A stretch of DNA of 64,000 nucleotides from Pseudotabrizicola sediminis (GTDB lineage Bacteria > Pseudomonadota > Alphaproteobacteria > Rhodobacterales > Rhodobacteraceae), in contig NZ_RPEM01000008.1 of assembly GCF_004745575.1 (NCBI RefSeq), forward strand, positions 62,329 to 126,328. Reading direction: 5' to 3'. Every line of letters starts with the position of its first letter. The first letter of the stretch is position 1. This document shows, one piece after another, positions 2,908-60,482 of this stretch. The translations under genes and the position numbers were made by a program. The notes beneath the pieces are model-generated. The model made no database searches. It was not told the origin of the DNA and was given only the letters and a program-made list of their open reading frames with translations.

Positions 2908-3243
2908 GAAGGCACCAAAGGCTTTGGTGTTTTCTGTCGCGCAACGAGTGGTTATGGCTTGATCGTCCTTCGGTAAGCTACATGACCCTGGTGACCAAAG
3001 TGCAATCGGCTGAATTTCATGCAATATTATCATGTTAAAGGGCGCAATCGCAACCTTGCCTGCCCTTCATGAAGACGAATAGCCGGCCGCTCTCCGGCAG
3101 GTGCGCAGCGCATTCGAAACTTTCGCGACCACGATCTGATCTGCATCAAGGCCCTGGATGTCTGCCCAGGCAATAATGGCGCATTCACGCACACCTGTTT
3201 CGGGGGTTGGCTTTCCTTGACACAGTTTTGATTGGGATGAGAC
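2908..3243. other. Intergenic stretch before ftsH
   Basis: No supported gene. It is less GC-rich around 2990-3045. It holds the FNR-like palindrome at 3136-3149 and then the ftsH leader. A second look-alike, TTGAT-TGGG-ATGAG at 3227-3240, is too close to the ftsH start to be an activator site. Confidence 0.6.
3136..3149. promoter_or_regulatory. FNR-like palindrome upstream of ftsH
   Basis: CTGAT-CTGC-ATCAA matches the FNR/ANR/FixK consensus TTGAT-N4-ATCAA at 9 of 10 positions and lies about 95 bases before the ftsH start. The CTGC spacer recurs in three other promoter regions of this window, which makes chance less likely. It is likely bound by a Crp/Fnr-family activator. Confidence 0.65.
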
Positions 3244-5166
3244 ATGGAAAATCACGTACCACCGCCAGAACCGTCAGAACGGCCGACTTTGGCACGGCTG
3301 CTGTGGCCCGTGGTTTTCATGCTGGTTGGGTTTGCGTTTCTGTCCACGCAGATGCCCTCGGGGACTTCGGCACCAACCGAGGTTTCATATAGTGAAATCA
3401 AGGCTCTCATCCGTGGCGGACAGGTGGGCCAAGCGACCCTTGAAGCGTCAGCCATCGTCGCCACCCTGCACAGCCCGACCGCCACAGGTGCCAACCGGGT
3501 GCGCGCCATCACCCCGCAGCAACCTGATGCCGGCCTGTTACCACTGCTTGAGGAAATGGGTGTGACGGTGACAGCCCAAGAGCCACGAGCACCGTCGGCT
3601 CTGATATCCCTGCTGCCGTGGCTTCTGATCATCGGCTTCTACTTCTGGCTCAGCCGTAGAATGATGGGCGGGATGGGCGGCGGTATGGGTGGCGGCCTTC
3701 CGGGGGGTATCGGGGATTTCTTGGGCGGACGGGCGGCCAAACCTGTCAAACCCACCCGCAAGGTGACCTTTGCCGATGTCGCAGGCCAGGACGAGGCCAA
3801 GCGCGAGGTGTCGGAACTGGTTGAATTCCTGCGCGATCCGGACCGGTTTTCCAAGGTTGGCGCAACCGTGCCGCATGGCGTCTTGCTGATGGGCCCGCCC
3901 GGCACCGGCAAGACGCTGCTCGCCCGCGCGCTGGCAGGCGAAGCAAATGTGCCGTTCTTCTCCACTTCCGGGTCCGAGTTCATCGAGGTGTTCGTGGGCG
4001 TCGGCGCAGGCCGGGTGCGCAAGATGTTCGAAGAGGCGCGCAAGCAATCGCCCTCGATCATCTTCATCGACGAGTTGGACAGCATCGGCCGGACGCGCGG
4101 CACCGGCCTTGGCGGTGGCCACGACGAGCGCGAACAGACGCTGAACCAGATCCTTGCCGAGCTTGACGGATTCAGCCCGCGCGAGGCGGTGGTGGTGCTG
4201 GCCGCCACCAACCGCCCCGATGTGCTGGACCCTGCATTGTTGCGCCCCGGCCGGTTCGACCGGCATGTGACGCTTGAATTGCCCGACAAGATCGCCCGGC
4301 GGGCAATCCTTGATGTGCATGTCAAGGATCTGCCGCTGTGCCATGATGTCGATCTGGATCAGGTGGCAGCAGGGACTCCGGGGTTTTCCGGGGCAGATCT
4401 CAAGAACCTCTTGAACGAGGCAGCGATCACTGCGGCCCGCCGGTCGGCGGCAGACATTACCCCCGAAGATCTGGATCAGGCGCGCGACAAGGTGATGATG
4501 GGCACGGTGCGCACACTGGCGATTCAGCCGGACGAAAAGCATCGCCTTGCCGTGCACGAGGCTGGGCATACCGCTGTGGCCTTCTACAACCCCGGTGCCG
4601 ATCCGATCTACAAGGTCACGATCATTCCGCGCGGGCGCAGCCTTGGCAGCACCCACATGCTGCCCGAACATGACCGCCACACCCTGCCCGAGGCATATTT
4701 GCAGGTGCAATTGACCACGCTTCTGGCCGGGCGGGCGGCGGAAAAGTTGCTGCTCGGCTCGGTCAGTTCGGGGGCCGATGACGATATCCGCCGCGCCACG
4801 GTGCTGGCGCGTTCAATGGTGGCGCGCTGGGGCATGGACCCCGACATCGGCCCGGTCGATCTGCGCGACAGCGAAGATCACCCGTTCCTTGGCCAGCAGA
4901 TCGCCCAGCCGCGCAGTTTTTCGGACCAGACGGCTGCGCGGGTGGATCAGGCGGTGATCTCCCTGTTGCACGCAGCCGAAGCGCAGGCATTGCTGATCAT
5001 CGAGTCGCACCGCGACCCGATCGAGCAACTTGTCGCCCGGCTGGAGGCCGATGAAACCCTCGACCTGCCAGCGATACGGGAATGCCTTGGCCCGAATGAC
5101 ACCGTCACCCCCTTCGTCAAAGGCCGGGCAGGACGCAAACAACCCGCCGCCGACCGAACCCGATAG
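3244..5166 (+). CDS. ftsH: ATP-dependent zinc metalloprotease FtsH (stress-island type)
   Basis: 640 residues. The membrane-anchored AAA protease degrades unfolded or regulatory membrane and cytosolic proteins. Visible parts: transmembrane segment 1 at about 20-38, a short periplasmic FtsH-extracellular domain, transmembrane segment 2 at about 118-138, a Gly/Met-rich linker (MMGGMGGGMGGGLPGG), the AAA module with Walker A GPPGTGKT at about 217-224 and Walker B IIFIDE near 272, an SRH region with RPGRFDRH, and the zinc-protease motif HEAGH near 438. It sits at the head of a stress island, with an FNR-like site about 95 bases upstream, rather than next to tilS/folP, so it is probably an additional FtsH specialised for membrane stress and not the housekeeping copy. 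Confidence 0.95.
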   Translation: MENHVPPPEPSERPTLARLLWPVVFMLVGFAFLSTQMPSGTSAPTEVSYSEIKALIRGGQVGQATLEASAIVATLHSPTATGANRVRAITPQQPDAGLLPLLEEMGVTVTAQEPRAPSALISLLPWLLIIGFYFWLSRRMMGGMGGGMGGGLPGGIGDFLGGRAAKPVKPTRKVTFADVAGQDEAKREVSELVEFLRDPDRFSKVGATVPHGVLLMGPPGTGKTLLARALAGEANVPFFSTSGSEFIEVFVGVGAGRVRKMFEEARKQSPSIIFIDELDSIGRTRGTGLGGGHDEREQTLNQILAELDGFSPREAVVVLAATNRPDVLDPALLRPGRFDRHVTLELPDKIARRAILDVHVKDLPLCHDVDLDQVAAGTPGFSGADLKNLLNEAAITAARRSAADITPEDLDQARDKVMMGTVRTLAIQPDEKHRLAVHEAGHTAVAFYNPGADPIYKVTIIPRGRSLGSTHMLPEHDRHTLPEAYLQVQLTTLLAGRAAEKLLLGSVSSGADDDIRRATVLARSMVARWGMDPDIGPVDLRDSEDHPFLGQQIAQPRSFSDQTAARVDQAVISLLHAAEAQALLIIESHRDPIEQLVARLEADETLDLPAIRECLGPNDTVTPFVKGRAGRKQPAADRTR

Positions 5167-5202
5167 GACTTTTGCGGACAAGAGCAGCGCAGGATGACGA
5201 CC

Positions 5203-5244
5203 ATGTCCGAGACTATCTTTCGCACCAAGGGCCTGACCAAGGTC
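5203..5244 (+). pseudogene. Possible start of an ABC-transporter ATPase gene, truncated
   Basis: Directly after ftsH, the frame from ATG 5203 (or ATG 5194) reads MSETIFRTKGLTKV, the usual first strand of MacB/LolD-type ABC ATPases. It then changes to unrelated sequence and stops after about 50 codons. No Walker A follows. If real, it is the 5' scrap of a deleted gene. The match is only 14 residues, so this is tentative. The rest of 5167-5440 shows nothing else. Confidence 0.3.
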
Positions 5245-5440
5245 TCGGTCAGTCAGCCTGTTCTTCGGAATTTCACCATGGACTACAAATACGATCCGGC
5301 ACCGTGCGCGAAGACTTTCGCCCGGTCGCATGGCTCTGTAGACGGCACGATCTGATCGGGTTGACAGGTCCGTAGCAGAAACGACGCGAGGTGTTCTCAT
5401 TCGCCTTTTCTTTACCCTTTGGGCTCAAGAAAGTTGGCGA

Positions 5441-6277
5441 TCAGTGCGCTAGAAGAACTGGCATTCTCAGATCGGTCAGAACGCCTTTGGTCGCCCCTCC
5501 AAGAATGAAGTCGCGGATCCGGGAATGGCCGAAGCCGCCCATGGCCAGAAGTTGCGCGCCCTCGGCAAGGGCCGTATCCTGAAGAGATGCTGCGATGCTT
5601 CTTCCGTCCAGCGTCAGGTCGACAGCTTTTGCCTCATAGCCTCGCAGATCAAGAGACGACACAAGGGTCTGCGCAAGGCCGGTCCGACGCAGCGTCTTTT
5701 CGTCTTGCACTGTCAGGACAGAAATCCTGCCCCCTGTCGGCAGGATTTGCAGCGCGTCACGAAGCGCCCGAGCCGCAACACGGCTCTCGTCCCAAGCGAT
5801 GGCAATATGGTCGACGGTTCCCGCTGTGGCGTTTGGAGGTACAAGAATCACGGGAAGCCCAGACCCAAAGATCATGGCTTGTGCCATTTCCTGTGTTGCA
5901 AAAGACTCTGCCGACCAAAGCACCAACGACAGATCAAAGTAGCGCCCTTCTGCCGCGGCGATTGTCGGCACCTGGCCCACCACGACGTCTTGACGGGTGA
6001 CGGAAACCTCGACGCCGGAACCGCCAGCCGTCTCGACAAGGGCTTGCAGACGTTCGCACTCTGCGCGACTGCGCGCTTCCGCTGCGCGTGACAGGCCCTC
6101 CACGTTGATGAGATACCCCCCGATCGGTGAAGGCACCGGAGGAAACTGCACCGCGAAAGTCGTGACATGCACCTTGCATCCGAGCGCGCCTGCAAAGCTG
6201 ATCGCGCCCCGGATGGCATCGTCGGAGGCGGCTTCTGGATAGGTGTTCAAGGGGATGTAGACAATGCAATCAGGCAA
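5441..6277 (-). CDS. Tandem-domain universal stress protein
   Basis: 278 residues made of two UspA folds. The first begins PDCIVYIPLNTYPEAASDDA; the second begins HIAIAWDESRVAARALRDAL and ends with the ATP-loop-like GGFGHSRIRDFILGGATKGVL and a closing beta strand MPVLLAH. Such proteins bind ATP and support survival under starvation or low oxygen. The open frame extends to 6334, but a TTG at 6277 has AAGGAG eight bases upstream and gives the natural N-terminus, so I use it. The gene follows the broken usp copy at 6335-6651 in the same direction and is probably served by the FNR-like site at 6711-6724. Confidence 0.85.
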   Translation of the reverse strand: MPDCIVYIPLNTYPEAASDDAIRGAISFAGALGCKVHVTTFAVQFPPVPSPIGGYLINVEGLSRAAEARSRAECERLQALVETAGGSGVEVSVTRQDVVVGQVPTIAAAEGRYFDLSLVLWSAESFATQEMAQAMIFGSGLPVILVPPNATAGTVDHIAIAWDESRVAARALRDALQILPTGGRISVLTVQDEKTLRRTGLAQTLVSSLDLRGYEAKAVDLTLDGRSIAASLQDTALAEGAQLLAMGGFGHSRIRDFILGGATKGVLTDLRMPVLLAH

Positions 6278-6334
6278 GTTGTGTTCTCCTTTGACAGTTG
6301 CAGTGTGGGATTCTTGCAAACGGCATAGCGCCAA

Positions 6335-6651
6335 TCAGGCCGCCTCGGGCGGAATGGTCAGGACGTCACACTTCGCGTCTTTCAGGACCTGCTGGACCAC
6401 GCTGCCCAGAACCATGCGGGCGACTGCGCCTTTACCTTGGTTCGCAACGACGATCAGGTCCGCTTTAGGCTCTTCCGCCGCCTTGAGAATTTCATTGGCG
6501 ACGGTCGTTTCATCAGGCCGGACGACCTTTTCTGCCTGTTCAATCCCCAGCCGTGCGATGAACGCCGCCAGAGACTGTCGCGCTTGACCGCACGTCTGAG
6601 CGCCCGATCAGACCTTTCCGAGAAATCGGTCGCGAACATGATCCTTTTCAT
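6335..6651 (-). pseudogene. Universal stress protein gene, frameshifted and internally deleted
   Basis: From ATG 6651 the frame gives MKRIMFATDFSERSDRALRR, a perfect Usp N-terminus. After about codon 22 the frame is lost. A second frame continues with RQSLAAFIARLGIEQAEKVV, then the Usp C-terminal half ADLIVVANQGKGAVARMVLG and the closing strand CDVLTIPPEAA before TGA at 6337-6335. The length is 317 bases, not a multiple of three, and roughly 40 residues of a normal 145-residue domain are missing. One deletion explains both changes. The remaining message may still carry translation toward the intact usp gene downstream. Confidence 0.8.
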
Positions 6652-6710
6652 GGTCTGCCCTCCTGTCCTTGGGATGAAGGCAATTCAAACACTCAGGATG
6701 GTCACATGGA

Positions 6711-6724
6711 TTGATGCAGATCAA
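6711..6724. promoter_or_regulatory. Perfect FNR-type palindrome between stress and antiporter operons
   Basis: TTGAT-GCAG-ATCAA is a perfect match to TTGAT-N4-ATCAA. On the minus strand it reads TTGATCTGCATCAA, with the same CTGC spacer as the sites at 3136, 54221 and 60469. It lies about 60 bases from both divergent starts (6651 minus, 6781 plus), so one dimer could serve both operons. Confidence 0.8.
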
Positions 6725-6780
6725 TCAAACGCGACAATCCTTCGCTATTCTTTACAAAACCGTATGGGAAGCAGAAGGCC

Positions 6781-7008
6781 ATGCCGCTTGATCAGTATCA
6801 AACCGTCAAGGAAGTCGCTGAACGCCTGAAGGTGGCCGAGGCGACCGTGCGTCACTGGATCAAAATCGGCCAGTTGCGCGCCATCGATATCGGCAAAGGC
6901 TGGCGCATTGCCAATGTCGATCTGAACGAATTCCTGCGCCTGCATCAGACTGCACCGAGGCAGCACAGCGATGAACCGAACGGTCTTGATGCAGAAGGGA
7001 AGCCTTGA
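6781..7008 (+). CDS. Small excisionase-like (HTH_17/MerR-type) DNA-binding protein
   Basis: 75 residues. The segment YQTVKEVAERLKVAEATVRH followed by WIKIGQLRAIDIGKGWRI is the winged helix of the excisionase/HTH_17 family, here as a stand-alone protein with a short polar tail. It is the first gene of the antiporter operon, and its TGA overlaps the antiporter ATG (TGATG), so translation is coupled. No integrase or attachment site is nearby, so a local regulatory role is more likely than phage excision. The target is unknown. Confidence 0.8.
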   Translation: MPLDQYQTVKEVAERLKVAEATVRHWIKIGQLRAIDIGKGWRIANVDLNEFLRLHQTAPRQHSDEPNGLDAEGKP

Positions 7009-8723
7009 TGCCGGTACTGACCTCCTTCGCCGAAGTGGCCCTGCTTCTTGTCATGGCTGCCGTGATCGGTCTTGTCGGCACGCTGGCGCGGCAACCGCTG
7101 ATCGTCAGCTTTATTGCTGTCGGGCTGATCGCGGGGCCTTCGGCGCTGGATGTGGTGCGGTCGGACGCGCAGATAGACCTGCTGTCCGAACTCGGCATTG
7201 CGGTTCTGCTGTTTCTGGTCGGCATTAAGCTGGACGTGAAGCTGATCCGGTCGTTGGGGGTGGTCTCGGTATTGACCGGGCTGGGGCAGGTCGTCTTTAC
7301 CGCGTTTTTCGGCTATCTGATCGGTCTGGCGCTAGGGCTTGGTCACATCACAAGCCTTTACGTCGCAGTCGCGCTGACGTTTTCCTCGACCATCATCATC
7401 GTCAAGCTTTTGTCCGACAAGCGCGAGATCGACGCGCTGCACGGCCAGATCGCGCTGGGGTTCCTGATCGTGCAGGACCTTGTGGTGGTGCTGGCGATGA
7501 TCGTGCTGTCGGCCATCGGCATCGGCGCCGCAGAGGGCGGGCATGGCGGCGGGTCGGTGGCGATGGTGCTGGCCTCCGGGCTGGCGCTGGTGGCGGTGGT
7601 GGTCTTGTTCGTGCGCTACGCCGCCGATCCCTTGACGGAACGGCTGGCCCGCGCGCCCGAACTTCTGGTGATCTTCGCCATTGCCCTCGCCGCAATGTTC
7701 GCCGCCGTCGGCGATTTCGTTGGTCTGGGAAAGGAGGTGGGCGGCCTGATGGCGGGCGTGGCGCTGGCCTCGACCCCCTACCGCGAGACCATCGCCGCCC
7801 GGCTGGCACCCTTGCGTGACTTCCTGCTCTTGTTCTTCTTCATCGCGCTTGGGGCCACATTGGACCTGTCGCTCTTGGGCACGCATGTCACCGGGGCGAT
7901 CCTGTTCTCGATATTCGTGCTGATCGGCAACCCGTTGATCGTGCTGGCGATCATGGGGGCGATGGGCTACCGCAAGCGCACCGGTTTTCTGGCCGGGCTG
8001 ACCGTGGCGCAGATCAGCGAGTTCTCGTTGATCTTCGTTGCCATGGGCGTGTCGATTGGCCATGTGACCGACGATGCGCTTGGTCTTGTCACCATGGTGG
8101 GCCTCGTGACCATCGCAGCCTCGACCTACATGATCACCTACTCACACCAGATCTACACGGTGTTCGAACCGCTGCTTGGCGTCTTCGAACGCAAGGGAAC
8201 TCCGCGCGAACCGTCCGACGTGGGCGCGCATGCAACGAGCGGCTACAAGGTCATCATCTTCGGTCTGGGACGGTTCGGCACCGCAATCGGGCTGCGCCTG
8301 AAGAAGCGTGGCATCCGGGTGCTGGGCGTGGACTTCAACCCGCAAGCGGTCCGTCGGTGGCGCGACCTTGGCCTTGAGGCCGACTTTGGCGATGCCAGTG
8401 ACCCCGAGTTTGTCGCAGAGTTACCGTTCCGGGGGGCAGAGTGGATGGTGTCAACGGTGCCGATCCACTCCACGGGCCTGAGCCACGAAGATACCCGCCG
8501 GACCCTCATCCAGCTGGCACGATCCGCCGGGTTCTCGGGCCGGATGGCAGCAGCCTCGCACAGTGCGGGCGACACTGAGGTGTTGTTCGGCGCGGGTGCC
8601 GATCTGGTGCTGGAGCCTTTCCAGGACGCCGCCGACCGCGCCGTAGATCTGCTATGCGGCGCCACCGAAGAACAGCGCACCGAGTTTCCCGAGATCGCCG
8701 CAGAAGGTCGCGAAGTAGGATGA
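7008..8723 (+). CDS. Kef-type cation:proton antiporter (CPA2) with TrkA-N domain
   Basis: 571 residues. About 12 membrane segments form the CPA2 fold (1-385), including the conserved TFSSTIIIVKLLSDK and FLIVQDLVVV segments typical of KefB/KefC. A cytosolic Rossmann domain follows (about 405-530, GLGRFGTAIGLRLKKRGIRV, the GxGxxG nucleotide site). Family members exchange K+ or Na+ for protons and are gated by nucleotide or thiol signals. The ATG at 7008 is chosen over the TTG three bases earlier because it overlaps the upstream stop. The gene fits a pH/ion-stress function in this island. Confidence 0.9.
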   Translation: MPVLTSFAEVALLLVMAAVIGLVGTLARQPLIVSFIAVGLIAGPSALDVVRSDAQIDLLSELGIAVLLFLVGIKLDVKLIRSLGVVSVLTGLGQVVFTAFFGYLIGLALGLGHITSLYVAVALTFSSTIIIVKLLSDKREIDALHGQIALGFLIVQDLVVVLAMIVLSAIGIGAAEGGHGGGSVAMVLASGLALVAVVVLFVRYAADPLTERLARAPELLVIFAIALAAMFAAVGDFVGLGKEVGGLMAGVALASTPYRETIAARLAPLRDFLLLFFFIALGATLDLSLLGTHVTGAILFSIFVLIGNPLIVLAIMGAMGYRKRTGFLAGLTVAQISEFSLIFVAMGVSIGHVTDDALGLVTMVGLVTIAASTYMITYSHQIYTVFEPLLGVFERKGTPREPSDVGAHATSGYKVIIFGLGRFGTAIGLRLKKRGIRVLGVDFNPQAVRRWRDLGLEADFGDASDPEFVAELPFRGAEWMVSTVPIHSTGLSHEDTRRTLIQLARSAGFSGRMAAASHSAGDTEVLFGAGADLVLEPFQDAADRAVDLLCGATEEQRTEFPEIAAEGREVG

Positions 8724-8760
8724 AGTCCAAAGCCGAATTGACAGCCAAAAGGAGAACATC

Positions 8761-15867: not shown

Positions 15868-17469
15868 ATGCCCCACCCCCGCCTGACATTTCACGGTGCG
15901 GCCCGTTCGGTGACAGGGTCCTGTTTCCGGCTGGAAACCGATCACGGAGACATCCTGATCGACTGCGGGTTGTTTCAGGGATCAAAAACCGAAAAGGAAC
16001 TGAACTACCGTCCCTTCCCCTTTGCGCCCGAGAAGATTGCAGCTGTAATCCTCAGCCATGCGCATATCGATCATTCGGGCCTGCTGCCCAAACTGGTGAA
16101 ACATGGGTTCTCGGGGCCGATCCACGCGACGCCTGCCACAACCGATCTGGCCGGGGTGATGCTGCCCGACAGTGCGCATATTCAGGAGATCGAGGTTGAA
16201 CAGTTCAACCGCCGCGCCGCCCGACGCGATCGCGGTTCAGTTAGCCCGATCTATACCGGCGCGGATGCAGCGGCCTGTCTCGACCAGTTCTGCTCGCACC
16301 CCTACAACAGCTGGTTTGCCGTCCTGCCCGGCCTGAAGGCGCGGTTCTGGAACGCAGGGCACCTGCTGGGATCTGCATCGGTCGAGGTCGAACTGGCGCA
16401 GGCCGAGGGTGGCCCGCTGCGCATCCTTTTCTCGGCGGACATCGGACCAGACTACAAGTTGATGCACCCCGATCCCGAAGGCCCAAGCGGCGTGGACTAT
16501 CTTATCTGCGAGTCGACCTACGGCGACCGCGACCGCATCGACGCCACCGCCGACCGCCGCCGCCAAATGCTTTGCGAAGAAGTGCGCGCGGCCATGCATC
16601 CCCATGGGGCGCTGCTGATTCCGTCGTTCGCGGTAGAACGCGCGCAGGAACTGATCAGCGATCTGGGCCGCCTGATCGCCGAAGGGGCGCTGCCGCAGAT
16701 CCCGATCTATGTGGACAGCCCGCTTGCCACCAAGGCCACGCGCGTCTTCGCCAAGCATCACAAAGAGTTGGAGGAAGGCGCGGTGCTCATGCAGGGCTTG
16801 AAATCACGCCACCTGCACTTCACCGAAACGCGCGAGCAAAGCATCGCACTTGACCGGCTGCAGGATTTTCACATCGTCATCGCCGCCTCGGGTATGTGCG
16901 ACGCAGGGCGCATCCGGCACCGGCTGAAGAACTGGCTGTGGCGTGACGAGGCCACCGTTCTGTTCACCGGCTTTCAGGCGGTGGGCACGCTGGGGCGCAT
17001 CTTGCAGGACGGCGCGAAATCGGTGCGCATCCAGGGCGAGGACTTTGCCGTGCGCGCCCGGGTCCGGTCGCTTGACCTTTACTCCGGTCACGCCGACGGC
17101 ACTGAATTGCGCGACTGGATCAAGGAGCGGCTGCCGATCCGGCATCAGATGTTTCTTGTTCATGGCGAAGAGCCCGCGATGGCAGGGCTTGCGGCGCGAC
17201 TGGATGGAATTGTCGCGGTGGACAGTGTCTTGCAGCCGAAGTTGGATGAGGGCTTTGTGCTGACGCCAGACGGCGCTCAAAGCCTTGCGTCGGCGACTCC
17301 ACCGCGACTTTCGCCTGAAAAAGTTGCGCACCTTGATTGGCACAACGACGTCTCGCGTCTTCTGCTGGAGATCAATGAGGGCCTTCTGGCCAGCCCGGAC
17401 GAAAAGACCCGCGCCGCCCTGATCCGCCGGTTGCAGCGCGCGCTTAAGGAGGCTGAGCGCCAAACCTGA
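15868..17469 (+). CDS. MBL-fold/beta-CASP RNA-processing exonuclease-like protein
   Basis: 533 residues. Metallo-beta-lactamase domain with the zinc motif SHAHIDHSG near residue 59, then a beta-CASP domain (SPLATKATRVFAKH, SGMCDAGRIRHRLKNWLW) and the late SGHADGTEL motif with a third metal His. This is the layout of bacterial CPSF/Ysh1-like RNases. An unusual C-terminal tail of about 70 residues (DWHNDVSRLLLEINEGLLAS onwards) follows the catalytic part. It starts 28 bases after phaC with a recognisable ribosome site, so it is probably in one transcript with phaC. Its RNA target is unknown. Confidence 0.88.
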   Translation: MPHPRLTFHGAARSVTGSCFRLETDHGDILIDCGLFQGSKTEKELNYRPFPFAPEKIAAVILSHAHIDHSGLLPKLVKHGFSGPIHATPATTDLAGVMLPDSAHIQEIEVEQFNRRAARRDRGSVSPIYTGADAAACLDQFCSHPYNSWFAVLPGLKARFWNAGHLLGSASVEVELAQAEGGPLRILFSADIGPDYKLMHPDPEGPSGVDYLICESTYGDRDRIDATADRRRQMLCEEVRAAMHPHGALLIPSFAVERAQELISDLGRLIAEGALPQIPIYVDSPLATKATRVFAKHHKELEEGAVLMQGLKSRHLHFTETREQSIALDRLQDFHIVIAASGMCDAGRIRHRLKNWLWRDEATVLFTGFQAVGTLGRILQDGAKSVRIQGEDFAVRARVRSLDLYSGHADGTELRDWIKERLPIRHQMFLVHGEEPAMAGLAARLDGIVAVDSVLQPKLDEGFVLTPDGAQSLASATPPRLSPEKVAHLDWHNDVSRLLLEINEGLLASPDEKTRAALIRRLQRALKEAERQT

Positions 17470-51269: not shown

Positions 51270-51452
51270 ATTCACAGGATGCTGGCACTGACAAAGGTGC
51301 CCGGGCGTGGCACGGCAGGGGAATACGGCTTCGCGGTCATCTTCTTTGATGTCGGCTCCATAACGGGCAATTCCCCGAGAGTTCTGCCCTCGGGTAAACC
51401 CGGGCCGGTTCAGATTGCCTCGCTCCTCACCGGCTTTGTCGCCAGGGTTCGA

Positions 51453-54149
51453 TCATCCATTGTCGTCGGTGATTGCCGACAGGTCTTCCGGAGGAGCAAG
51501 ACCGAGGCGGATCTGTTTTTCGACCTCGACTATCGCAAAGAACACGGCACCGATCCCGACAATCAAGAGACCATCGGACAATGATACCGAATTTGTCCCA
51601 AGAATTCCCTGAGCCAGCGGCAGGTAGGTCACGACAACTTGCGCCGGTACGACAATGGCGAGGCTGATCCACACCGCTTTGGTACCGCGGGTCGCGGCCC
51701 ATGTCAGCGACGTGCTGCGGAGATTGCGAACGAAAAAAAGATAGATGATCTGCAGCACCACGATCATGTTCATGGCGAGCGTCTGGGCAAGCGCGAGGTC
51801 ATGCCCCTTATTGAAAGCATAGGAAAAAATCCCGAAAATTGCCGCAACGAACAGGACGGAAATGAAAGCCACCTGCCACAGCAGGGCTCCGGTCAGCAAC
51901 GGCGACGGGCGCGCACGGGGGGGACGGCGCATCGTATTGGCTTCGGTCGGCTCAAAAGCCAGCGCCAGCCCAAGCGTCGTGCCGGTGATCAAATTGACCC
52001 AAAGTATCTGGATCGGCGAGATCGGCAGTGTCATGCCAAGCAGCAGCGCGATGATGATCGTACCGGCTTCGCCTGCGTTGGTGGGCAATGTCCAGGAAAT
52101 GACCTTGCGAATGTTGTCGTAGACTGTGCGGCCTTCACGTACGGCGGCCGCAATTGACGCGAAATTATCGTCAGCCAAGACCAGATCTGCGGCCTCCTTG
52201 GCCGCTTCGGAGCCCTTTACCCCCATGGCAATGCCGACATCGGCGCGCTTCAACGCGGGGGCATCATTCACTCCGTCGCCAGTCATCGCAACGGTCAACC
52301 CTTTGGCCTGCAATGCCATGACAAGGCGCAGCTTGTGCGCGGGCGACGTGCGGGCGAAAATGTTGGTCTTGGTCACCGCGAACGTCAGATCGGCATCGCC
52401 CAGTTTTTCGATGTCGGCACCGGTCAGCACCGATCCAGGGTTTCGCAGCCCGATTTTGCGCCCGATCGCTGCGGCGGTTCCGGCATGATCGCCGGTGATC
52501 ATCTTGACCGCGATACCGGCAGCGTGACAGTCGGCCACCGCTTCGATGGCCTCCTGACGCGGCGGATCGATCAATCCGACCAAAGCAGCCAAAGTCAGTT
52601 TTCCGTCAAGATTGGCGGCGTTCAACTCTCCCTCCGGGGCCTCGCACAGGGCCAGCCCCAACAGCCGCTGGCCTTCCGCAGCCACGCGCTCGGCCTCGTC
52701 GTTCCAGAATGCGGTATCGAGCGGCTCAGGCCCTTCCGGCCCTTTCTGATCGCGGCACATGGCAAGAACGCGCTCCGGCGCGCCCTTGACCAGAACCAGA
52801 CGCTGGCCTTCCGGCCCTTCGACCAATACCGCCATGAACCGATGAGCTGCGTCGAAGGGTATCTCGTCCTGCCGGGTCCAGCCCGCGGCATCGGCCCCAG
52901 CCTTTGCGGCAAACGCCAAGAGCGCGCCTTCCATCGGGTCGCCCGCAACCTGCCAGCCATCATCCTTTTGCGACAGCTCTGCATCGTTGCACAAAAGCGC
53001 CACCAGTCCCGCGTCACCCAGCGAGCCCACGCCGTCGTTAGGGCTGATTTCGCCCTCGGGGGCATAGCCGATCCCGTCGATGGTCACGCTGCCCGAAGAC
53101 AGTACGGCGCTGGCCACCATCATTTCGTTGCGGGTCAGCGTGCCGGTCTTGTCGGTGCAGATCACCGAAACCGCGCCGATCGTTTCGATCGCGGGCAAGC
53201 GGCGCACGATCGCGTTGCGGCGCGCCATGGCCTGAACGCCGACCGAAAGCGTGATGGTCATTACAGCGGGCAAGCCTTCGGGAATTGCCGCGACCGCCAG
53301 ACCAACGACGGCCATGAACTGATCGGCGAAATCGATACCCCGGACGAAATAGCCGTACAGCAGCAGGATCGCTGCAATCAGCACGATCAGCACCGTCAGC
53401 CACCGGGCAAAGCGGTCCATCTGTTCGACCATAGGCGTTGTCAAAACCTCGACCGTGCCAAGCATGTCACTGATCTGGCCAATCTGGGTTGCGGCCCCGG
53501 TGGCAATCACCACGCCGCGCCCGGTTCCGGCGGCAATCAGGGTGCCACTGAAGGCCACGCCGGTTTGATCGCCCAGTGCGGCATCGGTCGCCACCGCATC
53601 TGTCGTCTTTTCCACCGCCATCGACTCGCCGGTGAGGATTGCCTCCTGCACCTGCAAGCCCCTGACCTCTGTCAGGCGCAGGTCTGCGGGCACCTTGTCC
53701 CCCGGCTCAAGCAGCACAAGGTCGCCCGGAACCAGATCGGCGGCTTCAACATCGATGCGTCGTCCGTCGCGCATCACCGAGGCATTCGGCGCCAGCATCG
53801 AGCGGATCGCCGCCATCGCCGTTTCAGCGCGACCTTCCTGCACGAAACCGATCGTTGCGTTGACCAGGACAACGGCAATGATCACGCCGGTATCGACCCA
53901 ATGCGACAGCGCCGCCGTCACCACGGCAGCCCCGATCAGGACATAGATCAAGACATTGTGGAAATGCGCCAAAAAACGCAGCACCGCCCATTGCCTAGGC
54001 TCCTCGGGCAACCGGTTGGGGCCGTGCGCTTTCAGCCTTACCTCCGCTTCGGCTGACGACAGGCCGTCGGCCGTTGCCGAAAGCGCCTGGAGCACACCAT
54101 CGACAGCCTGCGCGTGCCAAGCTTGGGTTTGTTCAGTCCGGTCCTTCAT
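51453..54149 (-). CDS. P2-type cation-transporting ATPase (second)
   Basis: 898 residues, same architecture as the pump at 9528-12134 and clearly paralogous: [45 protein letters not shown]. It shares M4 PEGLP and M5 NAGE and again has Gly in M6 (NLITGTTLGLA) where SERCA has Asp. The C-terminus is about 20 residues longer. Good Shine-Dalgarno (GGGAGAC). Divergent from the arginine deiminase operon across an FNR-like site, so both are probably induced together when oxygen is scarce. Confidence 0.92.
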   Translation of the reverse strand: MKDRTEQTQAWHAQAVDGVLQALSATADGLSSAEAEVRLKAHGPNRLPEEPRQWAVLRFLAHFHNVLIYVLIGAAVVTAALSHWVDTGVIIAVVLVNATIGFVQEGRAETAMAAIRSMLAPNASVMRDGRRIDVEAADLVPGDLVLLEPGDKVPADLRLTEVRGLQVQEAILTGESMAVEKTTDAVATDAALGDQTGVAFSGTLIAAGTGRGVVIATGAATQIGQISDMLGTVEVLTTPMVEQMDRFARWLTVLIVLIAAILLLYGYFVRGIDFADQFMAVVGLAVAAIPEGLPAVMTITLSVGVQAMARRNAIVRRLPAIETIGAVSVICTDKTGTLTRNEMMVASAVLSSGSVTIDGIGYAPEGEISPNDGVGSLGDAGLVALLCNDAELSQKDDGWQVAGDPMEGALLAFAAKAGADAAGWTRQDEIPFDAAHRFMAVLVEGPEGQRLVLVKGAPERVLAMCRDQKGPEGPEPLDTAFWNDEAERVAAEGQRLLGLALCEAPEGELNAANLDGKLTLAALVGLIDPPRQEAIEAVADCHAAGIAVKMITGDHAGTAAAIGRKIGLRNPGSVLTGADIEKLGDADLTFAVTKTNIFARTSPAHKLRLVMALQAKGLTVAMTGDGVNDAPALKRADVGIAMGVKGSEAAKEAADLVLADDNFASIAAAVREGRTVYDNIRKVISWTLPTNAGEAGTIIIALLLGMTLPISPIQILWVNLITGTTLGLALAFEPTEANTMRRPPRARPSPLLTGALLWQVAFISVLFVAAIFGIFSYAFNKGHDLALAQTLAMNMIVVLQIIYLFFVRNLRSTSLTWAATRGTKAVWISLAIVVPAQVVVTYLPLAQGILGTNSVSLSDGLLIVGIGAVFFAIVEVEKQIRLGLAPPEDLSAITDDNG

Positions 54150-54220
54150 CGCTGTCTCCCGACCCGGTCAAACACTGCGTTCCCCGTGCGGCAGCCTATT
54201 CTGCGCTTTGCCGTGATGTC

Positions 54221-54234
54221 CTGATCTGCATTAG
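54221..54234. promoter_or_regulatory. FNR-like site between P-type ATPase and arginine deiminase operons
   Basis: CTGAT-CTGC-ATTAG, 7 of 10 matches to the FNR consensus and the identical CTGC spacer, with the trailing TTC shared with the site at 60469. It lies about 60-70 bases from both divergent starts. Arginine deiminase operons are classic ANR/FNR targets. Confidence 0.55.
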
Positions 54235-54294
54235 TTCGGGCGCGTCCCATACCAGCTAGCCTGATCTCGTCACCTCACCTCCGGGAGCAGCCTC

Positions 54295-55740
54295 ATGCCA
54301 GCCACCGAAAAACCGGATGCGAAACGTGGGTTCCGATTCCCTTCGGCCTTTACGATCCTCTTTGCTCTAATCATCCTTGTCGCGATCCTGACCTGGATTA
54401 TCCCCGCAGGACAGTACGAACGCGTGGCCTCCGAGGCGCTTGGCAAGGACGTGCCCATCGCAGGCACCTATGCGCCCACGGAAGCTACCCCGCAGGGCGT
54501 CTTCGATGTCATCCTCGCCCCGATCGCCGGGTTCTACGATCCCGTGGACTATGTGGCCCGCGCCATCGACGTGTCGCTGTTCGTACTGATCATCGGCGGG
54601 TTCATCGGGGTCGTAACCGCCTCGGGCGCCATTGATGCCGGAATCGCCCGCGCCATGGTCCGCCTTAAGGGGCGCGAGAACTGGATGATCCCGATCCTGA
54701 TGGCGCTGTTTGCCCTCGGCGGCACCACCTACGGCATGGCCGAGGAAACACTGGCCTTCTATGTCCTTCTGATCCCGGTGATGATCGCGGCCAAATATGA
54801 TGCGCTGACTGCGGTAGCCGTGATCCTGCTGGGTGCAGGCGTGGGCGTTCTCGGGTCTACGGTCAACGCGTTTTCAACCGTCATCGCCTCGGACGCCGCG
54901 GGGATCAGTTTTGCCGATGGCCTTGTGCTGCGGCTGGCCATTCTGGCGGTAGCTTGGGTGGTCACGGTAGCTTTCGTGATGCGCTATGCCGCAAAGGTCA
55001 GGGCCGATCCGACGAAATCGCTGGTCTTTGACATGCAGGCCGCAAATGAGGCGCATTTTCTGGCCGAGACCCCATCCGAGAATGTCGAATTTACCGGTTT
55101 GCACAAGATAGTTCTGATTCTGTTCGCGCTGACCTTCGGCGCGATGATCTGGGGTGTATCGATCGGCGGCTGGTGGATGGCGGAAATGAGCGGGCTGTTT
55201 CTGGCCGCCGCCATCGTCATCGGCATCATCGCCCGACTGGGCGAGGGCAAGCTGGTTGAAAGCTTCGTGAACGGCGCGCGCGATCTGCTGGGCGTGGCGC
55301 TGATCATCGGCCTGGCGCGCGGGATCGTCGTGATCATGGATGCCGGGATGATTACCGACACCATCCTGCACGCGGCGGAAACCAGTGTGACGGGCCTGTC
55401 GCAGACGGCCTTCATCCTCGTGGTCTACTGGGTTCAGGTCGGGTTGTCGTTCTTCGTGCCCTCCACGTCGGGGCTGGCCGTCCTGTCGATGCCGATCCTC
55501 GCCCCCGTCGCCGATTTTGCGAACGTAAAGCGCGAACTGGTTGTTACTGCCTTTGCCACTGCCAGCGGCATGGTCAATCTGATCACCCCCACGTCCGCCG
55601 TCGTGATGGGCGGCCTCGCCATCGGCCGCGTCCCTTATGAGCGCTGGCTGCGCTTTGTCTGGCCGCTTCTGGTCATCCTTACCCTTATCGTCATGGCAGC
55701 GCTTGCCTTGGCCACAATGCTGGAAGGCACCCCGACATGA
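54295..55740 (+). CDS. YfcC-family transporter, probable arginine/ornithine exchanger
   Basis: 481 residues, about 12 membrane segments, of the YfcC/DcuC-like (C4-dicarboxylate anaerobic carrier) family: [20 protein letters not shown] at the start, [35 protein letters not shown]. It is not the APC-type ArcD, but it occupies the arcD position: its stop overlaps the arcA start (ATGA). Exchange of arginine for ornithine is inferred from this coupling. Confidence 0.85.
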
Positions 55741-56960
55741 CCCTCACCTATGGCGTTCATTCCGAAGCGGGCCAGTTACGCCGCGTGATGCTGCACCGGC
55801 CCGGGCCGGAAATGGCGCGGCTGACGCCGGACAATGCCGAAAGCCTGCTGTTCGATGATGTGCTGTGGGTCAAACAGGCGCGCGTCGATCACATGGCCTT
55901 TGTCGATGTGCTGCGCGAACGCGGCGTCGAGGTGGTGCTCTTGCGCGAGATGCTGGAGGAGGTTGTCACCAACCCCGAGGCACGCCGCTGGCTGCTGGAT
56001 GCCCGCATCAACGAAAACTCGGTGGGGGTCGGCCTTGCCGCTGACCTGCACGCCTGCTTGATGGAAATCCCTGCCGAGGCGCTGACCCATATCCTGATCG
56101 GCGGGATGAGCCGGGCGGAATTGCCGATCCCCGTGGCGGGCGTCGTCGCGCCGATGCTGCGGGACGAGGATTTCCTGCTGCCCCCCATGCCCAACCAGAT
56201 CTTCACCCGCGACTCGTCGGCCTGGATTTACGGCGGTGTCACCCTGAACCCGATGTTCTGGCCCGCGCGGCGGTTGGAAACCCTGAACCTTGCCGCAATT
56301 TACAAGTTCCACCCCGATTTCAAGGATGCCGGTTTCCCGATCTGGTTCGGCGACCCGATGGTCGATCACGGGATGGCAGCGCTGGAAGGTGGCGATGTCG
56401 CCCCCATCGGCAATGGTGTTGTCCTGGTCGGCATGGGCGAACGCACCTCTCCGCAGGCGGTTGGCCAGTTGGCCCGCGCGCTGTTCGCGGGGGGCGGTGC
56501 GACACGGGTGATCGCCGGCCAGTTCCCGCGTGCCCGGTCGTCGATGCACCTCGATACCGTCTTCACCTTTTGCGACCGCGATCTGGTGACTGTCTTTGCC
56601 GAGGTGGCCGAAGCCATCGTCACCTATTCGCTGCGCCCCGATGACAAGGGCGGTGTGACGGTAACCACGGAAACTGCGCCCTTCCTTGATGTGGTGGCGC
56701 AGGCGATGGGTCTGAAAAAACTGCGCACGGTGCCGACCGGCGGTAATGCGTATCAAAGCCAGCGCGAGCAATGGGATGACGCCAACAACCTTTTATGCAT
56801 CAGCCCCGGCGTGGTGGTGGGATATGAGCGCAACGAACACTCCAACACCCTGCTGCGCAAGGCGGGGGTCGAGGTCATCACCATTTCAGGCGCTGAACTG
56901 GGGCGCGGGCGCGGCGGATCGCATTGCATGTCCTGTCCGCTGATCCGCGATGCCATCTGA
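55737..56960 (+). CDS. arcA: Arginine deiminase
   Basis: 407 residues. Converts L-arginine to citrulline and ammonia. The catalytic set is visible: FTRDSS, LEGGDV (Asp and Glu), HLDTVFTF (His) and the nucleophile Cys in SHCMSCPL near the C-terminus. First enzyme of the ATP-yielding arginine fermentation; translated with the transporter. Confidence 0.95.
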
Positions 56961-56990
56961 CACGCCCGACATTTCTGAAAGGACCACCCC

Positions 56991-57992
56991 ATGCCGCAAA
57001 ACCTACACGGTCGCAGTTTTCTGAAGCTGCTGGACTTTTCGTCGGACGAGGTGAGGTTTCTCCTTCGCCTCGGGGCCAGCCTGAAAGAGGCGAAAGCCAA
57101 CGGCACCGAAAAACAGCTTCTGAAGGGCAAGAACATCGCCCTCATCTTTGAAAAAGACAGCACACGCACGCGCAGCGCCTTTGAGGTCGCGGCCTTCGAT
57201 CAGGGCGCGCATGTCACTTATCTGGGGCCGTCGGGCAGCCATATTGGCACCAAAGAAACAATGAAAGACACTGCCCGCGTTCTGGGCAGATTTTATGACG
57301 CCATCGAATACCGCGGTTTTGGTCAGGCCGAGGCGGAAGTGTTGGCGAAGTTTGCCGGGGTGCCGGTTTACAACGGGCTAACGGACGAATTTCATCCGAC
57401 GCAAATCCTCGCCGATCTCATGACAATGCGCGAATACACCCACAAACACCTGTCAGACATCGCTTTCTGTTTCGTTGGCGATACTGGCAGCAACATGGGA
57501 TCGTCCCTAATGGTTGGCGCGGCATTGATCGGGATGGATATCCGGCTTTGCGGGCCGCAAAGCCTGTGGCCAGAAACGGCGCTGGTCGATCAATGCCGCA
57601 AACTTGCTGAAGCCAGCGGCGCGCAGATCACCCGGACCGAAGAACTTGCTGAGGGCATGGAGGGCTGCGACTACATCTACACCGATGTCTGGGTGTCGAT
57701 GGGCGAGCCGGAAGACGTCTGGGCCGAGCGCATTGCGCTGCTCTCGCCCTATTCCGTAACGCAAGAAGTGATGGATCTGACCGGCAACCCGCACACCAAG
57801 TTTCTGCACTGCCTCCCCGCCTTCCACAACCGTGAAACCAAGACAGGTGAGAAGATCTTTCAGACCTATGGCATCGACTGCATGGAGGTAACGGACGAGG
57901 TGTTCGAATCCCCCGCTTCGGTGGTGTTCGAGCAGGCTGAGAACCGGCTGCATTCCATCAAGGCGGTTCTTGTCGCCACGATGGGGGCGTAA
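56991..57992 (+). CDS. arcB: Ornithine carbamoyltransferase, catabolic
   Basis: 333 residues. Carbamoyl-phosphate site [14 protein letters not shown], ornithine site [13 protein letters not shown], and [14 protein letters not shown]. The length and position between arcA and arcC indicate the catabolic enzyme, which phosphorolyses citrulline to ornithine and carbamoyl phosphate. Preceded by GAAAGGA. Confidence 0.94.
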
Positions 57993-57993
57993 G

Positions 57994-58992
57994 ATGCGGA
58001 TCGTGGTCGCTCTGGGCGGCAATGCCTTGCTGAAACGCGGAGAGCCGATGACGGCCGAGGCGCAGCACACCAACGTCCGCATCGCAGCCGCCGCCTTGGC
58101 CGACCTGGCGCGCGATCATCAGATCATCGTGGCGCATGGCAACGGCCCTCAGGTTGGGCTGATGGCGCTGCGCTCTGCCGCCTATGCCCCCGACAATCCC
58201 TGGCCGCTGGATATCCTAGGCGCCGAGACCGAAGGCATGATCGGCTATCTTATCGAGCAAGAACTGATGAACGCCCTGCCGAAGGGCACCGATTGTGCCA
58301 CGCTGCTGACGCGGGTGGAGGTTGATCCCCAAGACCCTGCCTTTGATCGCCCGACAAAACCCATCGGTCCGGTATACTCGGCCGAAGAGGCGGAACAGGC
58401 TCGCACCAAAAACAATTGGTCAATGGTCGAAGAAACCAAAGGCGGTCTGCGACGTGTCGTCCCGTCCCCATTGCCGATCGCCATTTTGGGTATCAAGCCG
58501 ATCCGCCTGCTTGTGGAGGCCGGCGTCTGTGTGGTCTGCGCAGGCGGCGGCGGCATCCCGGTGGTGCGCGGGGCAGACGGCAACATGGAGGGCGTCGAGG
58601 CGGTGATCGACAAGGATCGCACCTCGGCCTTGCTGGCTGAGGCCTTGCAGGCTGACGTGCTGCTGATGCTGACCGACGTGGAAGCGGTGTTCCGCGATTG
58701 GGGCGGGCCGGATCAGGCCGCGATCGGATGTGTCACGCCGGATGCGCTGGACGCCATGAGCTTCGCGGCAGGCTCCATGGGGCCAAAGATCACTGCCGCC
58801 TGCGATTTTGTGCGGGCAGGCGGCACGATGGCGGGTATCGGGCGGTTGCAGGACGCGCGCGCAATCGTCGAAGGGCGCGCCGGCACGCAGGTGCGCATGG
58901 ACGCAATGGCAGCCGAAAATCGCTTGTCGGGCGAGAAAAATTCCGCCCGTGTGGCGAAACACCAACCTGAAGCAGTGCAGGGTTTATCCTGA
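57994..58992 (+). CDS. arcC: Carbamate kinase
   Basis: 332 residues. ALGGNALLKRGEP at the N-terminus, HGNGPQVGLMAL, GGGGIPV and IDKDRTSALLAEAL, the amino-acid-kinase fold of ArcC. It makes ATP from carbamoyl phosphate and ADP. ATG 57994 lies one base after the arcB stop; earlier starts fall inside arcB. About 20 extra C-terminal residues (EKNSARVAKHQPEAVQG) exceed the usual length of about 310. Confidence 0.94.
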   Translation: MRIVVALGGNALLKRGEPMTAEAQHTNVRIAAAALADLARDHQIIVAHGNGPQVGLMALRSAAYAPDNPWPLDILGAETEGMIGYLIEQELMNALPKGTDCATLLTRVEVDPQDPAFDRPTKPIGPVYSAEEAEQARTKNNWSMVEETKGGLRRVVPSPLPIAILGIKPIRLLVEAGVCVVCAGGGGIPVVRGADGNMEGVEAVIDKDRTSALLAEALQADVLLMLTDVEAVFRDWGGPDQAAIGCVTPDALDAMSFAAGSMGPKITAACDFVRAGGTMAGIGRLQDARAIVEGRAGTQVRMDAMAAENRLSGEKNSARVAKHQPEAVQGLS

Positions 58993-59174
58993 CGGTCCAT
59001 GGTAAGGAACGACCTGGCGGCGGACCTCCCCCCCCCGATGCCGCCGCCGGGACACGACCCGTTCCATCCGATGCGCCTCTTCCCCTCGTTCCGTGCATCG
59101 GGTGGACGGCCCTACACTCTGCGCTGTGATGCAGACGACGGTTGGCAGAACAAGGCTGGAAGATCACCCACTTC
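58993..59174. other. Intergenic stretch after arcC
   Basis: No gene seen. Contains a C-run (CCTCCCCCCCC, about 59027-59037). Confidence 0.5.
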
Positions 59175-59655
59175 ATGACCTGCAAGATCGCCCTCATGAC
59201 CAGCGCGGCTGGTGCGATCGCCACAGCCACCGCCAGACTGCTGGCCTCCCGGGGGTGAAGCCATCGCCGCTGCAGATATCGTTGGCGCGGAGTCCGCCCG
59301 TTGTGCGAGGTCATCGCGGATGAGGGGTGCCTGTGCGCCTAAGTCACCAGCAAGCACGCCGTTCTTGGCCTGACGCGGGCAACGGCGGTGAATTGGGGGG
59401 AGAAGGGCATCCGTGTGAACGGCGTCAAGCCCGGCCCGACCGAGAGCCGAATGATGACATCGATCAAGAAAGGAGCTCCGCTGCCGCGTCCGCCGTGCAT
59501 GACAGTTGTGCCGTCACGATCCCGATGAAGCGTTCCGGCACCCCGGACGAGGTGGCCGGAGTCGTCTCGTTTCTGGCATCCGATGATGCCGCCCGGGTCA
59601 ACGGGGCCGCCTATACCGTCGCTTGCGGTATGACGGCCGCCAGATCACTTGAGCA
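59175..59655 (+). pseudogene. Short-chain dehydrogenase gene with deletions and frameshifts
   Basis: ATG 59175 gives MTCKIALMTSAAGAIATATA with ARLLASRG, an SDR N-terminus with a damaged glycine motif. After a frameshift comes GEAIAAADIVGAE; about 100 residues are then missing, followed by VTSKHAVLGLTRATAVNW and GIRVNGVKPGPTESRMM (the region after the catalytic Tyr), and after another shift IPMKRSGTPDEVAGVVSFLA and VNGAAYTVACGMTA, the SDR C-terminus. At least two frame changes and one large deletion. Its end overlaps the 3' end of the convergent Crp/Fnr gene. Confidence 0.75.
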
Positions 59656-60376
59656 GCGGTCCGTCGTGATCAAGATAGGTCTTGTCGAAATCTGCCAACA
59701 GCACCAGGCCATCAAGGTCATCGAACTCAACCTGCCCATGCTGAAATGTGACCAGACCCTCCTCACGCAGTTCCCGCAATACTCGGTTCACATGGATAGC
59801 GCTGAGGCCCATCGCGTCTGCCAGCAGGTATTGCGACAGCGGACATGCATATCCCGATGTGGACCCCAAACCGACCAGCTTCAACCTTGCGCCCAGTTCC
59901 AGCAGGAAATGCGCCATGCGTTCTTTCGCATTCCGTCGTCCGATGCCGACCAGATGCTCGACCACCATTGCCTCGTCCCGAGACGCCGCCCAGAGGACGG
60001 CGGTCGCGAGGCGCGGCGTTTTGCTAAATGTTTCCAGAAGGTCCTTGGCCAGAACCTCCGACGCTTCGACGCGCGTCACGGGCTCGACGTTGTGGTCCGA
60101 GGTGCGGAACAGAACAGACCGCAGGCCCAGAAAATCACCTGGTATCTGGAAATCAACGATCTGCCGTGACCCGCCCGAAAGCAGTTTGTAAGAGCAGACC
60201 CATCCCGACGCGAGAATATAGGCCGACTGATCGGTCTGTCCTTGATGCACCATGTCGCGACCGGCGGGGAACGCCTTTCGACGCCCATAAAGACTGTCCA
60301 GCGCTGACAACTCTTCTTCAGACAGCGCCACGAAAGCCCCGAGTTTGCGCGCAAATGGGCTTTGAAGAGCTGTCAA
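59645..60376 (-). CDS. Crp/Fnr-family transcriptional regulator
   Basis: 243 residues. N-terminal cyclic-nucleotide-like sensor domain (about 20-135), dimerisation helix, and C-terminal HTH (about 170-220) with LADAMGLSAIHVNRVLRELR. The first 30 residues contain no Cys, so there is no FNR-type iron-sulfur cluster; only two Cys occur in the protein (WVCSYK, YACPLS). The recognition helix reads SAIHVNR, whereas FNR and FixK have VETISR-like residues (Glu and Ser lost, Arg kept). The start is TTG 60376 with AGGAG eight bases upstream. Divergent from a small gene, with an FNR-like site between them. Confidence 0.88.
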   Translation of the reverse strand: MTALQSPFARKLGAFVALSEEELSALDSLYGRRKAFPAGRDMVHQGQTDQSAYILASGWVCSYKLLSGGSRQIVDFQIPGDFLGLRSVLFRTSDHNVEPVTRVEASEVLAKDLLETFSKTPRLATAVLWAASRDEAMVVEHLVGIGRRNAKERMAHFLLELGARLKLVGLGSTSGYACPLSQYLLADAMGLSAIHVNRVLRELREEGLVTFQHGQVEFDDLDGLVLLADFDKTYLDHDGPLLK

Positions 60377-60468
60377 TGCTGTAGCTCCTGAGAATGCATG
60401 CGTGTTGAGACATAGTGTCGACTAGAGAAGCGCCCAAACGACGTTTCGTTCCTGTCGCGGCCAAAACG

Positions 60469-60482
60469 CTGATCTGCCTCAG
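60469..60482. promoter_or_regulatory. FNR-like palindrome between crp/fnr-type gene and small gene
   Basis: CTGAT-CTGC-CTCAG is symmetric at its outer bases (CTGA/TCAG) and shares CTGATCTGC with the sites at 3136 and 54221. It lies 86 bases from the small gene start and 92 from the regulator start, so it may autoregulate the regulator. Confidence 0.5.

Follow-up and report, generated by a model that had tools for sequence, protein, structure and literature searches.

The window analyzed here is a 64,000-nucleotide stretch of the Pseudotabrizicola sediminis genome (contig NZ_RPEM01000008.1, positions 62,329 to 126,328 of the forward strand) that harbors a gene for a Crp/Fnr-family regulator, P0001 (crp), and, divergent from it, a gene for a conserved protein of 78 residues, together with an arginine deiminase operon, a P-type cation ATPase, an FtsH-family protease, and an antiporter unit led by a small helix-turn-helix (HTH) gene (Table 1). 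FNR-like palindromes lie in four of the intervening regions and are named below by their first position (3136, 6711, 54221, and 60469). An earlier sequence-only reading had connected all four, by way of an invariant CTGC spacer, to a split stress regulon and to a regulator that recognizes the center of the site. The box at 60469 and 54221 differs from FNR sites by its outermost base pair, which is C...G at both rather than T...A.

Table 1. Candidate regulatory sites and genes of the window (positions count from the first letter of the 64,000-nucleotide stretch).
Feature	Position	Strand	Remarks
CTGATCTGCCTCAG	60469-60482	+	Probable operator common to crp (P0001) and the oppositely transcribed 78-aa gene
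CTGATCTGCATTAG	54221-54234	+	Probable P0001 box, P-type ATPase/arcD intergenic region
TTGATCTGCATCAA	6711-6724	-	FNR/FixK-type site; opposite strand reads TTGATGCAGATCAA
CTGATCTGCATCAA	3136-3149	+	FNR-like site upstream of ftsH
Crp/Fnr-family regulator P0001, 243 aa, likely TTG start	59645-60376	-	PF00027 + PF13545
Conserved 78-aa protein, no known family, divergent from crp	60568-60804	+	tblastn, alignment
Arginine deiminase operon: arcD-like carrier, arcA, OTCase, carbamate kinase	54295-58992	+	Pfam DcuC, ADI, OTCace, AA_kinase
P-type cation ATPase, divergent from arcD	51453-54149	-	Pfam E1-E2_ATPase, Cation_ATPase_N/C
75-aa excisionase-like HTH protein, first gene of antiporter unit	6781-7008	+	TIGR01764, E 4e-11
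FtsH-family membrane protease	3244-5166	+	TIGR01241, 683.9 bits vs cut-off 600
Weak site ATGACCTGAATCAA	13838-13851	+	173 bp before phaC; 2 mismatches to TTGAT-N4-ATCAA; spacer CTGA
Weak site TTGATCCTTGTCAA	17493-17506	+	69 bp before usp; 1 mismatch to TTGAT-N4-ATCAA; spacer CCTT

All four palindromes are present as the sequence-only reading described them, above chance, and each is intergenic according to a simple gene caller written for this analysis. The exact pattern YTGATCTGCMTYAR is found four times in the window relative to 0.02 expected (100 shuffles, none of which reached four), a figure that is flattering because the pattern was derived from the four sites themselves. A more independent check is the whole genome, where only six exact matches occur in 4.04 Mb and four of them fall inside the window. 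The other two, with gene starts as we read them, are located 17 nt 5' of the fnrL ATG (C12:298353) and 5' of the likely ATG of a membrane-protein gene (C14:1415). The fnrL copy (locus L001/L309) reads TTGATGCAGATCAA, and two further FNR-like sites follow about 1.8 kb on. A longest open reading frame (ORF) rule places three of the six matches (L001, L002, and L004) within ORFs that we judge to be over-extended; on our own reading of gene starts, all six are promoter-like, and the CTGC form is less frequent within coding sequence than in promoter regions.

The operator at 60469 can be followed through a large set of orthologous promoters. From 470 P0001 relatives found among genome contigs, the best 80 were kept, mostly Rhodobacterales by title; many of these loci are related and thus not independent. 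Exact CTGATCTGCCTCAG recurs in 15 of the 80 promoters, oriented as in the window and 94-116 bp 5' of the gene match, and the remaining loci feature CTGAT-N4-ATCAG-like sites with differing centers, or in some cases no site within three mismatches. At a score of at least 8/10 to CTGAT-N4-ATCAG, the box is recovered from 75/80 promoters; where 1.2 kb of upstream sequence was available (77 loci), it is present in 72 crp promoters versus three control stretches about 1 kb farther upstream. When the outer bases are left free, 57 of the 80 loci have a single best site of at least 7/8 (15 loci whose sites are weaker and 8 whose best sites tie are left out of this count), and the outer pair is C...G in 56 of them. 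The published sites, as tabulated in portions of three sources, never carry this pair (0/28 for FnrL, PMC2908626; 0/26 for FixK2, PMC9104804; 0/21 for R. capsulatus, PMC4634722). Finally, in an alignment of the window with 22 loci that were picked because a site was present, CTGA-N5-ATCAG is shared by 23/23 promoters and CTGAGGCAGATCAG by 15/23; it is the standout conserved block, and the flanks have diverged.

P0001 itself belongs to the Crp/Fnr superfamily (PF00027, 48.5 bits; PF13545, 52.0 bits; both above cut-off), and its best match by sequence in the Protein Data Bank is FixK2 (4i2o, E 2e-17). It scores under every NCBIfam cut-off, including that of the FnrL model (51.9 against 300). The four cysteines that hold the [4Fe-4S] cluster in the FNR/FnrL subfamily are lacking: of the 81 proteins of the P0001 set, not one has at least two cysteines in its first 45 residues, where the N-terminal FNR-type cluster would lie, and every one has three or fewer in total. 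The recognition helix is likewise distinct. FNR, FixK, and DNR share a recognition-helix Glu, part of a rule for specificity (PMC2908626) that corresponds to E209, S212, and R213 of E. coli FNR, and the helix of the FnrL encoded in this genome is ETVSR. In P0001 it reads [VI]H[VI]NR, with H195, N197, and R198 present in 81/81 proteins; by our own reading against FnrL, the Glu position is therefore V or I and the Ser position N in all 81, with the Arg retained throughout. Loss of the shared Glu fits an altered target for P0001, and a particular residue of this helix may read the new outer pair.

The second C...G box, 54221, is located 74 bp 5' of the arcD ATG, and the divergent ATPase/arcD arrangement with a box is also seen in locus L113. 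An arginine deiminase operon falls within the fetched crp flank in 16/80 loci, and 13 of these 16 arcD promoters have a site with at most three mismatches from CTGATCTGCATCAG at -65 to -75, the outer pair being C...G in nine and C...A in four. The spacer is CTGC in 10/16, often as CTAACCTGCGTCAG. Taken with the outer pair, these footprints suggest that 60469 and 54221 most likely belong to P0001.

The box is also found more widely around P0001 orthologues. Across the 80 loci (1.41 Mb, with the crp promoters and their 33 further sites left out), CTRAY-N4-RTYAG occurs at 88 intergenic and 10 coding sites, or 31.7 versus 0.88 per 100 kb, and is about 36-fold denser between genes. Changing the outer pair to A...T (2 intergenic vs 9 coding) or G...C (2 vs 17) abolishes this distribution, as does changing the spacing to N3 (0 vs 6) or N5 (2 vs 14), and CTRAY-N4-RTYAG itself is absent from 32 control loci without a P0001 relative (139 kb, 30 kb of it intergenic). 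Sixty-two of the 88 sites lie in distinct contexts. The genes behind the boxes, named from a scan of ten representatives, include arcD (nine proteins of one family), P-type cation ATPases (three), and, mostly at one or two loci each, GalU (named from sequence rather than scanned), a second Crp protein, Usp, CsbD, DUF3309, DUF883, cupin, and OmpA/glycine-zipper proteins, along with three Pfam-less families of small proteins (12, 12, and 8 members). In flavor, this appears to be a stress regulon, in keeping with the link between sites and stress genes that was drawn from the window alone. A small protein of 65 residues, rich in Cys and His and without a Pfam family, is repeatedly found behind the box (12 proteins at 11 loci; e.g., L111 8218-8415).

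Promoter geometry adds a further regularity: a -10-like hexamer starts 35 or 36 bases from the start of the box at each of the four sites. Toward the 78-aa gene, 60469 is followed at 35 bases by an extended -10 (TGC-TATACT); 54221 has TAnnnT at +36 in both directions (TAGCCT toward arcD, TAGGCT toward the ATPase); 3136 has AATAAT at +36 toward ftsH; and 6711 has TATTCT at +35, on the plus strand toward the HTH gene, with no clear -10 on its usp side. Among 62 distinct crp/78-aa promoters, T and G predominate at +32/33 (47/62 and 49/62), A at +36 (56/62), and T at +40 (52/62), again toward the 78-aa gene. With the hexamer taken as the -10, the center of the box falls near -41, which is the class II position, and the spacing thus suggests a class II mechanism.

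The CTGC spacer turns out to be less distinctive than the sequence-only reading had it. That it is CTGC each time holds only for the sites that were chosen: YTGAY-N4-RTCAR matches seven sites in the window, of which two (3136 and 6711) have a CTGC/GCAG spacer and others have CAGT (6788, at a gene start), CCTT (17493), or ATAG (43312, within a gene), and 54221 and 60469, with one imperfect half-site each, fall outside this pattern. Nor is there a single orientation, as the best -10 at 6711 is on the plus strand, on which the spacer becomes GCAG. Published FnrL and FixK2 sites, as tabulated, often have CTGC/GCAG, with 6/28 sequences in Table 2 of the R. sphaeroides FnrL ChIP-chip study (PMC2908626), 6/26 FixK2 boxes (PMC9104804), and 3/21 sites excerpted from the R. 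capsulatus table (PMC4634722); the ten extra FnrL sites that were predicted by sequence only have none (0/10, PMC2908626). Rough binomial probabilities, assuming 62% G+C, are 6e-7, 4e-7, and 2e-3 for these three bound or expression-backed sets, and CTGC is a favored spacer across alphaproteobacterial FNR/FixK sites generally. It is found, as CTGC or GCAG, in two of the nine TTGAT-N4-ATCAA sites of this genome, one of them at fnrL. It is also the commonest spacer near P0001 orthologues (31/88 intergenic boxes; 19/62 by distinct contexts), so its recurrence stands while its fixity does not; among the 75 crp-promoter boxes, there are 23 CTGC and 3 GCAG, and the others include TTCG, CCAG, and GTGG. 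With spacers that differ among orthologous promoters and a CTGC form that is frequent in FnrL and FixK2 sites, we reject the spacer as a specificity determinant.

Site 6711 is of a different type. On the strand that reads TTGATGCAGATCAA, it features the outer T...A, TGAT/ATCA halves, and 4-bp center of FNR sites, and the aligned site in the syntenic relative L301, TTGATCTGGATCAA, is also of the T...A type, with a CTGG spacer and an identical TATTCT -10. The TTGAT...ATCAA halves and this alignment mark 6711 as an ordinary FNR/FixK-type site. Across eight antiporter promoters (seven relatives and a paralogue from the same genome), a TTGA-type site aligns only in L301; L302 and L304 have looser sites, L307 has one with outer C...A, and L303, L305, L306, and L308 have none nearby. 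The spacers of these relatives are CTGG, GCAG, or CTGT. A perfect TTGAT-CAGT-ATCAA at 6788-6801, 77 bp from 6711, overlaps the start of the excisionase-like HTH gene and may be a second operator or chance. Beside 6711, positions 6351-6652 on the minus strand look by eye like a short Usp-type gene with a broken frame; a stop is present in the frame tried.

At 3136, the outer pair is C...A and the site lies 108 bp 5' of the ftsH ATG; it could serve either P0001 or FnrL. The fetched 12-17 kb stretches of relatives contain no ftsH orthologue and yielded no orthologous promoter; conservation is seen at 60469 and 54221 as footprints and at 6711 in L301. In the same stretches, the antiporter/ATPase block (L301, L302, and L304) and the arc/crp block (L311 and L313) are never together, and what had been described as a split regulon looks like neighboring modules rather than one unit that has been cut. 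The weaker forms reported before phaC and usp do exist, with spacers other than CTGC, and 13838 has no clear -10 at +35/+36. Directly after phaC and before usp, positions 15868-17469 of the plus strand encode a beta-CASP metallo-hydrolase that resembles aCPSF1 and type VII Cas14 models at scores below their cut-offs.

Overall, we propose that the window is probably served by two overlapping Crp/Fnr circuits, one in which P0001 would act on the C...G boxes at 60469 and 54221 and one of FNR/FixK type at 6711. In this scheme, P0001 would bind CTRAY-N4-RTYAG (outer C...G, spacer mostly CTGC) in its own divergent promoter at 60469, as well as the box at 54221 ahead of the arginine deiminase operon and the P-type ATPase. 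It would probably act on the 78-aa, arcD, and ATPase promoters as a class II activator, with a center near -41; we infer this placement, like the binding, the activation, and the signal, from sequence. The T...A site at 6711 would most likely be read by the genomic FnrL. The encoded Crp/Fnr protein is the likely reader of two of the sites; a single regulator for all four is unsupported.

Several observations weigh against this proposal. The CTRAY motif was chosen after the boxes had been seen. The T...A form of the same frame likewise favors intergenic over coding DNA near crp (9 vs 2 sites; 3.2 vs 0.18 per 100 kb), a pattern that FnrL sites would produce, although it is about ten times rarer there than the C...G form. 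The crp side of 60469 has no clear -10. Genome-wide, CTGATCTGNRTCAG averages 0.97 in the 32 genomes with P0001 and 0.79 in the 117 without (P 0.13), and YTGATCTGNRTCAR averages 7.50 and 6.35, respectively (P 0.047, a slight difference); these counts pool coding and promoter sites and exclude CTAAC halves, and they still lend no support to exclusivity. Co-occurrence of CTGATCTGN forms with P0001 is weak and hardly separates the two groups of genomes. Lastly, CTRAYCTGNNTYAG has five matches in the P. sediminis genome, and the three outside the window (C34, C56, and C67) lie within long open frames; they were dropped as targets, and the local regulon may therefore be small.

Alternatively, all four palindromes could be ordinary FnrL (or FixK-like) sites, with P0001 merely another FnrL target. 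We regard this as unlikely, though it has a real basis: the genome encodes an FnrL with the E..SR helix, the CTGC/GCAG share of published FnrL, FixK2, and R. capsulatus sites is substantial, and YTGATCTGNRTCAR is present in 145/149 family genomes, with P0001 relatives (E<=1e-50) in just 32/149. It does not account for the outer C...G pair, nearly universal in unambiguous crp promoters and absent from the tabulated FnrL and FixK2 sites, or for the tenfold excess of the C...G over the T...A form between genes near P0001. The regulator envisaged by the sequence-only reading, which would read the center and require CTGC at all four sites, is a far more doubtful proposition. CTGC is retained with the box in 15 crp promoters and most arcD promoters, and in FixK2, L195 is contacted by the thymine at position 8 (PMC9104804); however, most boxes in orthologous crp promoters have other spacers, and the antiporter sites of relatives vary as well. 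Finally, chance palindromes without function seem scarcely credible. The motif is short and its pattern was built post hoc, but the excess over shuffled sequence, the phylogenetic footprints at 60469 and 54221, and the spacing and outer-base controls all speak against coincidence.

The protein encoded opposite crp is nearly as constant in position as the regulator. Relatives are detected by tblastn in 74/80 loci, and the gene is divergent from crp and at most 300 bp away in 73; the exception is L161, where it lies about 3.3 kb from crp, and in L108 its reading frame breaks up. An alignment of 20 sequences shows 27 invariant columns, and the protein has no match at E<=10 in Pfam or NCBIfam. Its gene position prompts the guess that it is a partner or anti-regulator of P0001. 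Orthologues of crp with 81-89% identity occur in contigs titled Salipiger, Roseibium, Devosia and Hoeflea (both metagenome-assembled genomes, MAGs), Aureimonas, and Rhodovulum (L107-L125), which suggests that the crp/78-aa module has spread horizontally or, for some, that MAG contigs were misbinned. The pair is adjoined in the window by a gene (61191-63146, minus strand) for a fusion of an Ice_binding-like domain (PF11999) with an autotransporter beta-domain (PF03797).

FNR-like palindromes of alphaproteobacterial genomes are readily credited to FnrL or FixK. It is conceivable, and we offer it only tentatively, that an unrecognized Crp/Fnr subfamily has shifted its specificity by one base pair (outer T...A to C...G, E..SR to HVNR) and now governs a separate, partly mobile stress/energy regulon that is insulated from FnrL, with the 78-aa protein as signal partner or anti-regulator. 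If C...G boxes do belong to another regulator, part of what appears to be an oxygen regulon (arginine deiminase, cation ATPases, small stress proteins) would answer another signal, the system would be a clean natural case of paralogous Crp/Fnr proteins insulated by one base pair, and a 78-residue protein without a family would gain a testable role.

The open-access literature that we searched yielded no account of a C...G box or of a P0001-type regulator, which is no proof of absence, and as exact strings CTGATNNNNATCAG, CTGAT-N4-ATCAG, CTGATN4ATCAG, CTGATCTGCATCAG, CTGATCTGGATCAG, and CTGATCTGCATCAA had no match in it; TTGATCTGCATCAA does occur, in two papers that include the one on FixK2. 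Several known systems are nevertheless comparable, as far as the consulted portions of their sources describe them. Alphaproteobacterial Crp/Fnr groups A, B, C, and G and NnrR (Dufour et al. 2010) were assigned "related but non-identical" sites, deduced from promoters under autoregulation (PMC2908626), the approach also taken here; P0001 may be a member of one of these groups, and its box may already have been drawn for group A, B, C, or G. ArcR/FlpS-type activators of Gram-positive arginine deiminase operons are likewise Crp/Fnr regulators of an arc operon, although their hosts are distant and the likeness is one of description, not sequence. CrpK of R. sphaeroides (RSP_2572) resembles P0001 as a cysteine-free Crp/Fnr protein, and its regulon overlaps that of FnrL (PMC4263372); the spacer or flanking bases may, its authors propose, be what tells CrpK from FnrL (PMC4263372), but in a promoter test it has binding determinants in common with FnrL. 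FixK2 of Bradyrhizobium diazoefficiens is the closest solved structure by sequence, and phaC2, a usp gene, and chaperones are among the targets tabulated for it, with CTGC in some boxes (PMC9104804); unlike the P0001 box, its site is TTGA/C-N6-T/GCAA, without an outer C...G among those tabulated. FnrL of Rhodobacter (TTGAT-N4-ATCAA) shares with P0001 the Crp/Fnr fold and a 14-bp palindrome with a 4-bp center, has usp and oxidase genes among its targets, and commonly features CTGC/GCAG as the spacer. FnrL, however, has a [4Fe-4S] cluster, an E..SR helix, and mostly T...A sites, whereas P0001 combines the absence of a cysteine cluster with an HVNR helix and a C...G box.

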